64,000 nucleotides of DNA. Source: Synechococcus sp. MEDNS5 (lineage in GTDB: Bacteria; Cyanobacteriota; Cyanobacteriia; PCC-6307; Cyanobiaceae). Positions 1-4,696 of this stretch are shown piece by piece. Every line of letters begins with the position of its first letter. Positions within the stretch are counted from its first letter, which is position 1. Location: contig NZ_CP047952.1 of NCBI RefSeq assembly GCF_014279875.1, forward strand, positions 310,001 to 374,000, written 5' to 3'. Made by a program: the position numbers and the translations under genes. The notes beneath the pieces are model-generated. The model did not search any database, was not told the origin of the DNA, and saw only the letters and a program-made list of their open reading frames with translations.

Positions 1-717
1 GTCGCTAAGGCCCGGCAGCATGCCCGCGGCGTTGCTGAGCTGCAGGGACAGGAAGCCGAGAGGCCCCACCGTGCCGGCAATGGCTGCCACCACAGAGAGT
101 CCGTCGGCGAGGTCTCCAAGAGGACCTTCCACCCACCGTTGGGGGAGCAGTCCCACCAGCAGGGTGCGAGGCCGCAGTGGTTCGCCCCGTTGTTCCTGGA
201 TCGAGAGCGTGATCGTGACCGTGGTGGCCACAAGTGCCCAGGCCAGGAACCCCCAGTGCAGGAAGCTCACGGCCAACGAGGGATCGACAGCTGCTGCTGT
301 GGAACCTTTGACGTCGCTGAAGTAAGGCGCTGGCGTGCGGAAGTGGAATAGCGGTTCGGCCGCTGACCAGAACACTCCACCACCGGCCAACAGCGTGCAG
401 ATCAGCACGGCGCACCAGTCAAAGAATTTCAGACTTGGCTGGGCGTCGACTCCTCCCAGGCGCAGCCGTCCTACTGGACTGATCGCCATCACCACGGCAA
501 TCACGAACAGCAACAGCACCATCCACTGCCACAAGCCGCCAAGGGATCCACTGACGATTGCTTTGCCGGAGCTGGTGAATTGCTGGGCCAGTGTGAGGTC
601 AACGGCCGCCAGCACCAGAAAGGCCAGCAGAGGGCCCGCACCGATCCAAAGGGGCGGGCGACGCCACCATGGCCCTGTTGAAACGGGACCATCGTTGAAA
701 TTGGTTTGATCGCTCAC
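1..717 (-). CDS. BCCT-family betaine-type transporter, N-terminal part (runs off the left edge)
   Basis: Open reading frame on the minus strand from a GTG at 717 to the window edge with no stop (239 codons). The protein is hydrophobic with several membrane segments. A stretch reading GGVDAQPSLKFFDW followed by AGGGVFWSAAEPLFHF is the diagnostic BCCT block (compare the usual GMGIG-x-x-FWG-x-AEPLxH). BCCT carriers are Na+- or H+-coupled symporters or antiporters in the inner membrane for zwitterionic quaternary-amine solutes such as glycine betaine, choline or carnitine. Here the usual GMGIG glycine motif reads roughly LLAGGG, so the substrate may not be glycine betaine. It is the last visible gene of the operon 4026-1 and starts 35 nt after the flavoprotein gene. 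The C-terminal half is outside the window. Confidence 0.85.
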   Translation of the reverse strand, partial: MSDQTNFNDGPVSTGPWWRRPPLWIGAGPLLAFLVLAAVDLTLAQQFTSSGKAIVSGSLGGLWQWMVLLLFVIAVVMAISPVGRLRLGGVDAQPSLKFFDWCAVLICTLLAGGGVFWSAAEPLFHFRTPAPYFSDVKGSTAAAVDPSLAVSFLHWGFLAWALVATTVTITLSIQEQRGEPLRPRTLLVGLLPQRWVEGPLGDLADGLSVVAAIAGTVGPLGFLSLQLSNAAGMLPGLSD

Positions 718-752
718 GAAAACGCTGTAACGAAGAACTAGCGGGTCGCGCT

Positions 753-1940
753 TCAGGCGCGCACGGCCTCGCGCTGGTGACTCCAACAGGAGAGATCCAC
801 GGCCGGTGACTCTCCGCAGGCCAGTTGGGCGAGGGAATCGCCGACAAGTGGAGCGAACTTGAAAGCCTGGCCGGAGCCCCCGGCAAACAGGCTGAGTTTT
901 GGCGTGAGGCGGTCGAGAACGAAGTTCACATCACTCGTCATGGAGTACGGACTCATCACGGTTTCCACCCGTTCCTGCACACCATCAAGTTCGTTGAACA
1001 GAAAGCTGTCGAGAAGTTCGACCAGTCGAGCTGGGGGTTCACTGCACATGGCATTGGGTTCAGCGACCCGCAGCTCCTTTGGAGCCCAGTCGATGCCGGC
1101 CTTGATGCGCGGCCGTCCATCCGCTGTGCGGCTGAGAACAGGGAATCCGTAGTACAGGCCACCATCGTCGCCGCGTTCCCGTTGGAAGCAGAACCATTGC
1201 GGATAGCGATCCGCCAGGGAGGGATCAACGGTGTAGTGCGCCCACAACATCGGCCAGATCTCGAGCTTCGGTGAAAGACCAAGCGGGGCCAGCAACAGAT
1301 CACTCCAAATACCACACGCGACCACCACCTGATCGGCGGCGATGTGATGACCGTCGGCCAGAGTCACGCCCCCGCCGTTGGCGTCAACCCCTTTTACCGG
1401 AGTTTCCTCCAGGAGCTGATGACCCGCCTGTTCCGCTGTGCGCCGCCAGTGGGCGATCACCTTGTCGCTGCGCACCGCCCCGGCGGTGGGCTCGAACAGA
1501 CCGGTGAAGTCGGGTTTGGGTTTAAGCGGAAACCGTTCGGATATTTGTTTTGCGTTCAGAGCCTCATAGGGAATGTTCTGTTCATCCATCACCCGTCGGG
1601 CGCCAGGGATGGACCCCTCGATGGTTTCTTCATCCCAGCTTTCGCCGTAAAACAGCAATCCGTGGGTTTCCCGCAGATGCTGTCCAGCGTGCTGCTCCTC
1701 CTCCCGCCAGAGCCGATTGGCTTCCTGGGCCAGGCGGCAGAGCACCGGGTCGGAATACATCTCCCGGAACATGCGGGTTTCGCCGAAGCTGCTGGCCCGT
1801 GCATGGGCCAGGGTCTTCGCTTCCAGCAGCACCACATCACGCACTCCCCGCCGAGCAAGAGCTGCTGCACAGCTCAGACCGGCCATGCCGCCACCGACGA
1901 TCACGACCTCGGCTTGGACAGGCATTGGTGGTTGGCTCAT
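753..1940 (-). CDS. FAD-dependent oxidoreductase of the monomeric sarcosine oxidase / NikD family
   Basis: 395 aa, usual length for the MSOX family (PF01266 fold). The FAD ADP-binding motif VVIVGGGMAGLSCA is at residues 12-25, and the family motif SSFGETRMFR (residues 50-59) carries the arginines that bind the substrate carboxylate in MSOX. K280 (RIKAG) matches the oxygen-activating lysine, and GGSGQAFKF (354-362) carries the C-terminal substrate lysine K361. The cysteine that covalently holds FAD in MSOX aligns with S330 (MSPYSMTSD), so FAD is probably not bound there covalently. Family members oxidise secondary or cyclic amino acids: sarcosine, N-methyltryptophan, pipecolate, and piperideine-2-carboxylate to picolinate (NikD). 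The start overlaps the dehydrogenase stop by 4 nt (ATGA), so the genes are translationally coupled. Exact substrate unknown; a picolinate-forming role is my inference from the neighbours. Confidence 0.85.
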   Translation of the reverse strand: MSQPPMPVQAEVVIVGGGMAGLSCAAALARRGVRDVVLLEAKTLAHARASSFGETRMFREMYSDPVLCRLAQEANRLWREEEQHAGQHLRETHGLLFYGESWDEETIEGSIPGARRVMDEQNIPYEALNAKQISERFPLKPKPDFTGLFEPTAGAVRSDKVIAHWRRTAEQAGHQLLEETPVKGVDANGGGVTLADGHHIAADQVVVACGIWSDLLLAPLGLSPKLEIWPMLWAHYTVDPSLADRYPQWFCFQRERGDDGGLYYGFPVLSRTADGRPRIKAGIDWAPKELRVAEPNAMCSEPPARLVELLDSFLFNELDGVQERVETVMSPYSMTSDVNFVLDRLTPKLSLFAGGSGQAFKFAPLVGDSLAQLACGESPAVDLSCWSHQREAVRA

Positions 1941-2989
1941 GCCGCGTCTCCGAAACTCAGACCGATCGGATCATTTTCCGGTTCTGCGGCCACTTCCACA
2001 AGGGCAGCCCCCACCGATAAGCCCTGATCACGCTGATTGAGATAGTTGGTTGCGCGTTGGCGCACTTCCTGGCGAACGAAGGCATAGACGTCGTTGGCGC
2101 CCGCACCGTCCCAGGCATCGGGTGAAAAGCGTTCAATCGAATCAGCGATCACCGCACCGGCATTCACCAGCGGATCTGGGAGTACCCGGATACCGCGCCG
2201 GCGCAGGTCGTCCGCGAGCTGGGGCTGCTGGAAGGGGGCGTTCGCCGCTGGCACCACTGCAGCCACCTTCAGGGCGGATGCCATCTCTGCGTTGATCAAC
2301 CCGGAAATGGAACAGGGGATCAGGAGATCCACCTTGAGCTCCCACCAAGGGCAGTCGCTTGGCAGGGGGGTGGCTCCGGGAAAACTTGCACGCGATCTGT
2401 CGAGATCGGCGGTGAACACGGTCCAGCCGTGTTGAACCAGCACGCGAGCCACCGTGCCTCCCACGGCGCCGCAGCCATGCACAAGAGCGCGGCCAGGGGT
2501 GGCCTCACTGAGCTCAGCTTCCAGCACGGCTTCAACCGCGCCCAAGGTGCCGTGGGCCGTGGCGGCACTGGCGTCCACCGGACTTCCCACAGCAGCCAGC
2601 ACATAGGGGGTGAGCGCCATCAGGCGCTCCATGTCTTCCAGGCTGGTGTTGAGGTCACAGCCTGTGATCATGGCGCCATCGAGAGATTCGAGCAGGCTGG
2701 CGGTGACGTGGATCAGCTCGTCCTTGACCGCCGCCGGTTCAGCGGCGCGAGCCACGATCTTGCCGCCGGCGAAGCCTGTTCCGTAGAGGTCATGCTTGTG
2801 CGTCATCAGTCCAGCCAAACGTTCTCCGTCGGCGATGCACGCTTCGTCGCTTGGATAGTTGAGCAGGCGCAGTCCACCATTGGCGGGGCGCGCGGAGTCT
2901 GTGTTCTCAGCGACGACAAACACCGACAGATGATCCGAAACGTGCTCAGCGAGCACCGACACGGTCGGCTTGGTAGGGGTGGTTGTCAT
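1937..2989 (-). CDS. Glu/Leu/Phe/Val-family amino acid dehydrogenase
   Basis: 350 aa, close to leucine dehydrogenase length. The family reaction is NAD(P)-dependent reversible oxidative deamination at the alpha carbon of an L-amino acid. Visible hallmarks: K65 and K77 (in GFAGGKIVA), 12 residues apart as are the substrate and catalytic lysines of leucine dehydrogenase; D112 in CDLNT; GSPVDASAATAHG (residues 135-147); Rossmann motif VHGCGAVGG (170-178); and LPDPLVNAGAVI near 270-281. The substrate cannot be read from the sequence. Because it sits between a methyltransferase and a NikD-like flavoprotein, a lysine 2-dehydrogenase role (giving piperideine-2-carboxylate after cyclisation) is possible; that is inference. 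Overlaps the upstream gene by 1 nt and the downstream gene by 4 nt. Confidence 0.85.
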   Translation of the reverse strand: MTTTPTKPTVSVLAEHVSDHLSVFVVAENTDSARPANGGLRLLNYPSDEACIADGERLAGLMTHKHDLYGTGFAGGKIVARAAEPAAVKDELIHVTASLLESLDGAMITGCDLNTSLEDMERLMALTPYVLAAVGSPVDASAATAHGTLGAVEAVLEAELSEATPGRALVHGCGAVGGTVARVLVQHGWTVFTADLDRSRASFPGATPLPSDCPWWELKVDLLIPCSISGLINAEMASALKVAAVVPAANAPFQQPQLADDLRRRGIRVLPDPLVNAGAVIADSIERFSPDAWDGAGANDVYAFVRQEVRQRATNYLNQRDQGLSVGAALVEVAAEPENDPIGLSFGDAA

Positions 2990-4026
2990 CAGGCAACTTT
3001 CTCCATCATTTGGTGGTGTTCGACGTAATCAAGGCTCCACTCGCTCGGGTTATCGGCGATGCGTTGCTGGAGGCGCTCATAGACCAGGTCAGCGGCCTTG
3101 TCGCCCGCGGCACTGGCGAAGCTGTGTCGACTCCAGCTGCGGATCGTGGCCATCAGGCCCGCCGCGAAGGTGGCCGTGTCGCCATCCTCGTTCCAGCGCC
3201 TGCGGTATGGGCACTTCACGTACACCGTGCGTTCATCCACCAGACGCAGACCGTTGCGGTAAGGCGCTGATGATTCATCCTTCAACGGCGCCATGAATTC
3301 GTCAGGGGATTTGTAGAAGTTCAGCACCGTGCCGTTGCGGTACTGCTCCTCACTGATCACACCTTCATCGGCCAATCCACGCCAGATCTGATGTAACTGG
3401 TCGTGCACATTGCGAGTCTCCCCGCCGTTGTGTCCGAGATAGCGGCCTTCGTTGTCACGTGACAGGTTCACGGTCAGCAGGCGACCACCCGCGATCAGCT
3501 CGCGGCTGCGCAGTTCCAGCACGTAGGTCCAGTCTTTGAGAGCCTGGGCTGTGAAGCGTTGTAGAGCATCGGCGTCGCCCGAGGCCAGCACGTGCGTATG
3601 GGTGTCGAGCGGGCCGGGTGACTGGCTCAGCCAGTGCATGGCTGTTGCTGAAAAGCCGAAGCTGATGGTGTTGGGGCCGACGGAGGGCTCGTAAAAACTC
3701 CGGGCACTCACCAGAACTGTGGGCTTGGGTTCCCTGGGAATCTGCAGAGCCAGATTTTCGGCCAGGGCCACATTGTCGTTGCTTGGCAGGTCGTTGCCGA
3801 TCAACGTGAGATGAGCTTGCGGCTGATTGGCATGCAGGCGATCGAGGATCTGGTTCCAAAGCCCTACGGCGGTGCCTCCATCGGCTGCTCCGTAATCGAT
3901 CAGCACGTGGCTGTCAGATACAGGAAGTTGATCCACACAAGTCAGGGCCCAGTCCGAGGCGGCTTCGATGCAGAGGAGAGCGCCTTCGGTCTGCGCGCTG
4001 TAACCCGTGGTCATGGCAATGGCCAT
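2989..4026 (-). CDS. SABATH-type SAM-dependent methyltransferase
   Basis: 345 aa, similar to plant SABATH enzymes (about 350-380). Motifs in order: GYSAQTEG near residue 8 (family N-terminus), SAM-binding LIDYGAADGGTA (42-53), GNDLPSND (77-84, equal to the plant NDLPGNDFN signature), and SFGFSATAMHWLSQ (122-135), the SABATH substrate-pocket motif with W132. The family methylates carboxyl groups (salicylate, benzoate, jasmonate) or ring nitrogens (caffeine pathway, coffee trigonelline synthases). First gene of a four-gene operon. Start taken at 4026 (MAIAMTTGY); a second in-frame ATG at 4014 is equally possible. Family assignment is firm; whether it methylates O or N, and on what substrate, is not visible. 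Confidence 0.85.
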   Translation of the reverse strand: MAIAMTTGYSAQTEGALLCIEAASDWALTCVDQLPVSDSHVLIDYGAADGGTAVGLWNQILDRLHANQPQAHLTLIGNDLPSNDNVALAENLALQIPREPKPTVLVSARSFYEPSVGPNTISFGFSATAMHWLSQSPGPLDTHTHVLASGDADALQRFTAQALKDWTYVLELRSRELIAGGRLLTVNLSRDNEGRYLGHNGGETRNVHDQLHQIWRGLADEGVISEEQYRNGTVLNFYKSPDEFMAPLKDESSAPYRNGLRLVDERTVYVKCPYRRRWNEDGDTATFAAGLMATIRSWSRHSFASAAGDKAADLVYERLQQRIADNPSEWSLDYVEHHQMMEKVA

Positions 4027-4102: not shown

Positions 4103-4696
4103 TCAGGCCTCAAGCAGCAGTTGCCGGAGCTGGGGTTCCAGCAGGGCGAAGGCCCGGCCCCGGTGACCCTGCGCTTTCTTCTCTGGTGGAGCCATCTCGG
4201 CAAAGGTGCGTGCGGTGCCATCCACCTCGAAGATCGGGTCATATCCAAAGCCGCCTTCGCCTCTGGGGATCCGCGTGATCTGTCCTTCGCAGCGTCCCTC
4301 CACTTCCAGCAACACGCGACCACCAGGAGCGGCCAGGCACAAGGCAGCGCAGAAATGCGCACTTCGGTCGTCGCGATCCTTCAGGGCCTTGAGCAGTCGG
4401 CCGATGCGCTCCGGGTCGGTAGGGGCATAGCGGGCGGAATGCACCCCAGGGGCTCCGTCAAGAGCGTCAACGCTCAGGCCTGAGTCGTCTGCAAGGGCCC
4501 AGGAGTTGGTGGCGTTGGCGACGGCCACGGCTTTCAAGCGGGCGTTGGCAGCGAATGTCTGACCCGTTTCCTCCACCTCCAGTCCCTCCGGCTGGGCTGT
4601 GATCTGCAGGGGAAGGCTGTTCAGCAGGTGTTCGAATTCACGAATCTTGCCGCGATTGCCACTGGCGATCACCAGTGTTCGCAGTGAAGGGCTCAT
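4103..4696 (-). CDS. rdgB: Non-canonical purine NTP pyrophosphatase (RdgB/HAM1 family)
   Basis: 197 aa, normal family length. Hydrolyses dITP, XTP and ITP to monophosphates, keeping deaminated purines out of DNA and RNA. Visible signatures: N-terminal nucleotide-binding motif IASGNRGKIREF, central ALADDSGLSVDALDGAPGVHSARY with the metal-binding acidic residues, and C-terminal GRAFAL. Start ATG 4696 overlaps the stop of the upstream phosphohexomutase by 4 nt (ATGA), so the two are cotranscribed. The SABATH operon follows on the same strand 76 nt downstream, separated by a possible operator. Confidence 0.93.
   Translation of the reverse strand: MSPSLRTLVIASGNRGKIREFEHLLNSLPLQITAQPEGLEVEETGQTFAANARLKAVAVANATNSWALADDSGLSVDALDGAPGVHSARYAPTDPERIGRLLKALKDRDDRSAHFCAALCLAAPGGRVLLEVEGRCEGQITRIPRGEGGFGYDPIFEVDGTARTFAEMAPPEKKAQGHRGRAFALLEPQLRQLLLEA

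Follow-up and report, generated by a model that had tools for sequence, protein, structure and literature searches.

Which product is made by four tightly coupled genes at the start of a 64,000-nucleotide stretch of the Synechococcus sp. MEDNS5 genome (contig NZ_CP047952.1, positions 310,001 to 374,000; this whole stretch is called the window)? They encode a SABATH-family methyltransferase (MT), an ELFV-family amino-acid dehydrogenase (DH), an oxidase (FO) that depends on flavin adenine dinucleotide (FAD) and a betaine/choline/carnitine carrier (BCCT). A first-pass annotation, made from the letters of the window, had proposed that they serve the synthesis of homarine (N-methylpicolinate) from lysine together with the uptake or retention of betaines. 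We consider this function probable, and as a candidate drawn from sequence it is supported by NikD motifs in FO, by phylogenetic trees, by a relative of MT that is linked to nadA and by the occurrence of homarine in two Synechococcus strains. Homarine, a nitrogen-containing betaine, is abundant in the sea.

In the proposed pathway, DH would convert L-lysine and nicotinamide adenine dinucleotide (NAD+) into 2-oxo-6-aminohexanoate, NH4+ and NADH, and the oxo acid would close spontaneously to piperideine-2-carboxylate. FO would oxidize this compound to picolinate in two successive two-electron steps (piperideine-2-carboxylate + 2 O2 -> picolinate + 2 H2O2) and MT would place a methyl group from S-adenosylmethionine (SAM) onto the ring nitrogen of picolinate to give homarine. 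Finally, BCCT would retake homarine or related betaines from seawater. The argument draws on the observed gene identities, synteny, co-occurrence, conserved residues and phylogeny of the cluster, from which we infer all substrates of its proteins, the transfer of the methyl group to nitrogen and the direction of transport.

The four genes occupy window positions 1-4026 on the minus strand and are transcribed in the order MT, DH, FO and BCCT. MT and DH overlap by 1 nucleotide (nt; position 2989) and DH and FO by 4 nt (1937-1940), and a gap of 35 nt lies between FO and BCCT with the GTG at 717 as the BCCT start. This start codon is a choice, the longest open reading frame (ORF) opening at 786. 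The coordinates of the ORFs bear out the tight coupling described in the first-pass annotation. The families named there (SABATH, Leu/Glu-type dehydrogenase, NikD/sarcosine-oxidase-type flavoprotein and BCCT) hold as well, as each protein matches Pfam above the curated cut-offs: PF03492 for MT (8.3e-22, 78.2 bits against a gathering score of 29.8), PF00208 (6e-17) plus PF02812 for DH, PF01266 for FO (1.2e-47, 163.6 bits) and PF02028 for BCCT (3.6e-46 for the part in the window; 421.3 bits for the whole protein, gathering score 27).

The cluster behaves as a unit across genomes. When 300 genomes of the family Cyanobiaceae were each scanned with the four proteins, 53 proved to carry a close MT and two more gave 24% matches only. 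DH was present in 54 genomes and FO in 53, and the genomes with MT, DH and FO are the same 53. In all of these carriers the three genes follow one another directly, with unchanged order and a shared strand, so that their association is not due to chance. BCCT exceeded the cut-off in 52 genomes, all of them cluster carriers, and in none of the 247 others; it is the next gene after the three enzymes in 51 of these 52. MT is common in one genus of the family (g5; 28 of 34 genomes, and 17 of the 19 of good quality) and patchy in the Prochlorococcus genus of genome G270 (10/171, and 4/58 at good quality). In a sample of the phylum, it was found in five of 214 cyanobacterial genomes, the source genome included, all five being Cyanobiaceae. 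A scan of named relatives, covering the best 80 of 174, placed the three enzymes together in at least WH7803, RCC307, Prochlorococcus MIT9401, MIT9201, HNLC1 and HNLC2. The source genome (G000, 2,435,869 bases) is closely related to Synechococcus WH7803, whose locus (L053) contains all four genes with 95-97% identity to those of the window, gene for gene. Outside the cyanobacteria, a metagenome-assembled genome (MAG) of Myxococcales (L094) has the four genes side by side and in unchanged order, with identities of 45-55%, suggesting that they function as one unit. Besides this known cluster, a search of Myxococcota with DH gave matches at 28-38% identity (59 of 140 genomes had a match), and FO found matches at 28-31% identity in 5 of 96 alphaproteobacterial genomes. 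Viral contigs, scanned with DH and MT as the only queries, contained no relative.

The proposed picolinate step concerns FO. Its best sequence match in the PDB is NikD (2oln, 1.8e-37), ahead of sarcosine oxidases, and a structural model of FO, with a mean predicted local distance difference test (pLDDT) of 75, has NikD at the top of the matched structures (2q6u, Z 34.6), tied with sarcosine oxidase (Z 34.0). A 20-row tree places FO beside NikD (97/96) and separates both from six sarcosine-oxidase-like proteins. These six also served as comparators in residue tables of 62 cluster rows (58 distinct sequences); four of the five alphaproteobacterial FO matches were included in tables and tree, and L167 was left out. 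The residues are more telling than fold and tree. Two motifs, T-x-EG-x-I-x-G and P-x-WF-x-FQ, are shared by NikD and all 62 FO rows and occur in none of the six comparators. The first contains E108 of FO, which corresponds to NikD Glu101 and is kept in 62/62 rows. Asp284, within a K-x-G-I-D284 stretch likewise present in every row, corresponds to NikD D276, an assignment that rests on the HMMER alignment and the motif, as MAFFT left NikD unaligned around this stretch. Glu101 and Asp276 of NikD are taken here to be active-site residues whose loss slows the oxidation of piperideine-2-carboxylate and does not abolish it. The positions of NikD Arg53, Tyr258 and Lys358 are also kept throughout the 62 rows. 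FO thus resembles NikD (2oln, 2q6u, 3hzl) in its fold, in these five positions and in P-x-WF-x-FQ, and by analogy it may carry out the same conversion of piperideine-2-carboxylate to picolinate. The setting differs, since NikD belongs to an antibiotic cluster and FO stands beside a dehydrogenase and a methyltransferase. In the nikkomycin pathway, the alpha-amino group is taken off by an aminotransferase.

DH would take over this first step. It belongs to the ELFV dehydrogenases, with which (leucine, phenylalanine, ScyB) it has the fold and the catalytic Lys/Lys/Asp in common. Its model (mean pLDDT 88.9) matches phenylalanine dehydrogenase 1c1d (Z 35.6), leucine dehydrogenase 8gxd (Z 33.8) and ScyB (Z 29.9), and its identity to leucine, phenylalanine and tryptophan dehydrogenases amounts to 22-29%. 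Lys65, Lys77 and Asp112 of DH, which we take to be the catalytic residues of ELFV enzymes, are invariant in 15 rows. All NCBIfam matches lie far below their cut-offs, the best being ScyB with 102 bits against a cut-off of 600, and the DH matches listed for NCBIfam and the PDB include none named as a lysine 2-dehydrogenase. In leucine dehydrogenase, Leu40 lines the side-chain pocket; DH has Asn37 at this place in 63 of 64 rows (X in the other), the 64 including the lone copy of genome G030. The 23 comparators have Leu, Ile, Phe or Met there, with Met in ScyB (5b37). Moreover, 63 of 64 DH rows carry Glu28 where 20 of the 23 comparators have Ile. Together, the two replacements suggest a changed and more polar pocket. 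Lysine is proposed as the substrate because its deamination yields the substrate of NikD.

As for MT, NCBIfam gave no match, and its relatives in the PDB are the bacterial fatty-acid O-methyltransferase 5f2k, which is closest, and plant SAMT 1m6e. A tree of 24 rows unites MT with its counterparts from Prochlorococcus, Myxococcales and Electrothrix in a 100/100 clade, which excludes 13 further bacterial relatives and a fatty-acid methyltransferase. The Electrothrix member (locus L096, Candidatus Electrothrix gigas, a cable bacterium; 39% identity) sits on a long branch inside this clade and starts 23 nt after nadA, a quinolinate synthase gene whose product exceeds the TIGR00550 cut-off. The row of genes (L096:4865-10971) comprises nadA, the SABATH methyltransferase, a heavy-metal P-type ATPase and nadB (over the TIGR00551 cut-off). 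No FO match was found in the Candidatus Electrothrix gigas genome; DH was looked for within the L096 locus only. Since FO is absent there and MT adjoins nadA, both settings may share a pyridine carboxylate. The nadA-linked clade member thereby hints at pyridine-carboxylate substrates for MT, and the product of the Electrothrix gene row may be trigonelline, homarine or N-methylquinolinate. The coffee trigonelline synthase CTgS is a SABATH enzyme, and by analogy MT would transfer the methyl group of SAM to the nitrogen of a pyridine carboxylate, with picolinate as its substrate in place of nicotinate. MT belongs to a bacterial clade on its own 100/100 branch.

Homarine itself was named in the first-pass annotation as an abundant solute of marine Synechococcus, and published measurements report it in two strains. 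The accessible part of Heal et al. reports homarine in both Synechococcus strains grown, WH8102 and WH7803 (PMC8269262), and corrected intracellular concentrations reach 18 mM in WH8102 and about 0.2 mM in WH7803 (PMC10134881). In WH8102, a five-gene operon has been predicted, SYNW0229-0233, with SYNW0229 as the carrier (PMC2874817, accessible part), and the number of genes equals the order BCCT, FO, DH, MT and Ham1 of its relatives. The presence of the cluster in WH7803 is known from sequence and that in WH8102 from this predicted operon only. According to the same part of Heal et al., no biosynthetic or degradation pathway had been characterized for homarine (PMC8269262); a pathway for its catabolism has reportedly been published since (Nature Microbiology, 2026). 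The earlier statement that this synthesis had not been assigned to these genes agrees with the literature searched: among the papers listed, none assigns a homarine biosynthesis gene in its title or the opening of its abstract, and an assignment elsewhere in print is possible.

Several observations weigh against homarine synthesis from lysine. In FO, the position of the FAD-linking Cys, which is present in NikD (Cys321) and in all six comparators, holds Ser330 in 61 of 62 rows and Asn in L056, and the position of NikD Trp355 is Gln in all 62 rows. FAD is probably bound non-covalently in FO. Having neither the FAD-linking Cys nor Trp355, FO is NikD-like and no NikD in the strict sense; the NikD type expected at first sight therefore stands with regard to best PDB match, tree and motifs and falls short at these two residues, and the differences mean that FO may use another substrate. 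In addition, the FO model has a pLDDT below 50 at the active-site stretches 49-60, 104-109 and 251-261, and the FO tree drew long-branch warnings. The changes seen in DH are Leu40 -> Asn and Ile -> Glu28, with no acidic pocket-lining residue shown. The linkage of nadA and MT was seen in one of 59 genomes examined from the family of the cable bacterium, on a long branch, the other 58 having no MT match. Among the Cyanobiaceae genomes, G229 has no BCCT match and the BCCT of G270 is not adjacent, both genomes belonging to one genus, and G030 carries a DH relative with neither MT nor FO. WH7803, whose cluster is intact, has about 100-fold less homarine than WH8102 (PMC10134881); regulation could account for this gap. 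Diatoms and a haptophyte also make homarine, and Heal et al. derive it from quinolinate, made from tryptophan, through decarboxylation by an uncharacterized enzyme (PMC8269262, accessible part).

The alternative that survives best, though we find it unlikely, is that the cluster starts from another amino acid and ends in another N-heteroaromatic product (for instance ornithine -> pyrroline-2-carboxylate -> pyrrole-2-carboxylate, which would be methylated) or in a methyl ester. The sequence gives no specificity for DH, FO departs from NikD at Cys321 and Trp355, carboxyl methyltransferases are numerous among SABATH enzymes, and the solved structure nearest to MT is that of a fatty-acid O-methyltransferase. 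An uncharged ester would nevertheless be ill-suited to the linked betaine carrier, and the nadA-linked member of the MT clade, known from one genome, favors six-membered pyridine acids. Furthermore, homarine itself is the compound reported in Synechococcus cells (PMC8269262, accessible part).

A small chance is left to a second explanation, in which picolinate or homarine would come from quinolinate (NadA/NadB) or tryptophan, the cluster would only methylate, and DH and FO would be otherwise employed. It gains from the Electrothrix MT, which adjoins nadA with nadB nearby, and from the quinolinate origin given in the accessible part of Heal et al. (PMC8269262), yet DH and FO go with MT in 53/53 genomes, FO resembles a picolinate-forming oxidase and Pfam reveals no decarboxylase-like gene among the four.

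It is very improbable that the cluster is catabolic or serves salvage, with BCCT importing a betaine or N-methyl amino acid, FO demethylating or oxidizing it and DH deaminating the product. By profile, FO is indeed near N-methyltryptophan oxidase and monomeric sarcosine oxidase, its best NCBIfam match being PRK11259 (N-methyl-L-tryptophan oxidase; 190.5 bits, below the cut-off of 257), and the sarcosine oxidase 1zov (Z 34.0) is tied with NikD as a fold match. Against this, a SAM methyltransferase belongs to the unit in 53/53 genomes, and the position of sarcosine oxidase His345 is Gln and that of His269 is Asp (by motif register) in 62/62 FO rows, with the FAD-linking Cys315 replaced by Ser or Asn. 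The sarcosine-oxidase comparators also miss the two NikD motifs of FO. A role in aromatic or auxin-like signaling, with DH as a ScyB-like tryptophan dehydrogenase and MT methylating carboxyl groups in the manner of the indole-acetate or salicylate enzymes, is most improbable, for although ScyB is the best NCBIfam match of DH, at a score far below its cut-off, and MT matches plant SAMT, it fits neither BCCT nor the NikD motifs of FO, and ScyB (5b37) has the hydrophobic Met where DH has Asn.

Homarine synthesis from lysine thus remains the preferred reading. Each enzyme family involved is already known, and none of the papers listed makes the assignment to homarine. We lean towards a wider proposal, in which the cluster would be the first gene set for homarine and would combine an ELFV lysine 2-dehydrogenase, a NikD-like aromatizing oxidase whose FAD is not covalently bound and a SABATH N-methyltransferase of bacterial type. 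This set would have been exchanged among marine Synechococcus, certain Prochlorococcus and other bacteria, the MT of the cable bacterium being fed by quinolinate synthase instead. If true, one type of N-methylating enzyme would be joined to two different routes to the pyridine ring. With a marker for synthesis, homarine producers could be recognized in genomes and metatranscriptomes, and predictions at the level of strains follow. A comparable arrangement exists for glycine betaine in WH8102, whose GsmT/SdmT and ProVWX genes are numbered together (SYNW1913-1917; PMC2874817, accessible part); there too, solute-synthesis genes stand beside betaine transport. The enzymes are others, and the product of the present cluster would be an aromatic betaine.

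The features of the locus are collected in the table. The whole BCCT gene spans about genome positions 309137-310717. Directly upstream of MT, 76 nt apart, lies a Ham1-type gene that probably has a housekeeping role. It adjoins MT in most Synechococcus loci and does not do so in the Prochlorococcus loci, the Myxococcales MAG or L036.

Table. Genes at the start of the window (window coordinates; aa, amino acids).
Feature	Coordinates	Strand	Remark
MT, SABATH-family SAM-dependent methyltransferase, 345 aa	2989..4026	-	proposed picolinate N-methyltransferase
DH, ELFV (Leu/Phe/Trp/Glu dehydrogenase family) amino-acid dehydrogenase, 350 aa	1937..2989	-	proposed L-lysine 2-dehydrogenase
FO, NikD/monomeric-sarcosine-oxidase-type FAD oxidase, 395 aa	753..1940	-	proposed piperideine-2-carboxylate -> picolinate oxidase
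BCCT betaine/choline/carnitine carrier, N-terminal part	1..717	-	runs past the window start
Ham1-type NTP pyrophosphatase	4103..4696	-	PF01725 5.7e-58

Some copies of the cluster are diverged or incomplete. Three Prochlorococcus loci, L033, L085 (MIT9401) and L089 (MIT9201), contain a diverged MT-DH-FO set of about 49-56% identity with no adjacent BCCT. MT is frame-broken in L039:9201-10231 (G242) and L040:7596-8629 (G231), where the matches of DH, FO and BCCT are free of stops; these breaks are either natural losses of MT or sequencing errors. The FO match of G112 begins only at residue 47 and the BCCT match of G273 has one in-frame TGA, each a possible start error or decay. The lone DH of G030 (L035:8573-9568), another genome of the Cyanobiaceae with 2.9 Mb, has about 60% identity, and one tested ORF downstream of it carries a spermidine-synthase domain.

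A further group of MT relatives, at 34-38% identity (35 loci, L098-L132), was set aside, the 13 of them in the tree falling outside the 100/100 clade. They come mostly from Proteobacteria, with two Acidimicrobiales, and the loci contain no DH, FO or BCCT match. Neighboring ORFs were inspected in 15 of the 35 loci, and in at least four (L102, L109, L123 and L124) a TRAP carrier (DctP, DctQ, DctM), Pfam-checked in L102 and L123 only, stands beside the SABATH gene. The hosts are a Granulosicoccaceae MAG and other Gammaproteobacteria, in which the carrier perhaps serves the uptake of methylated acids.

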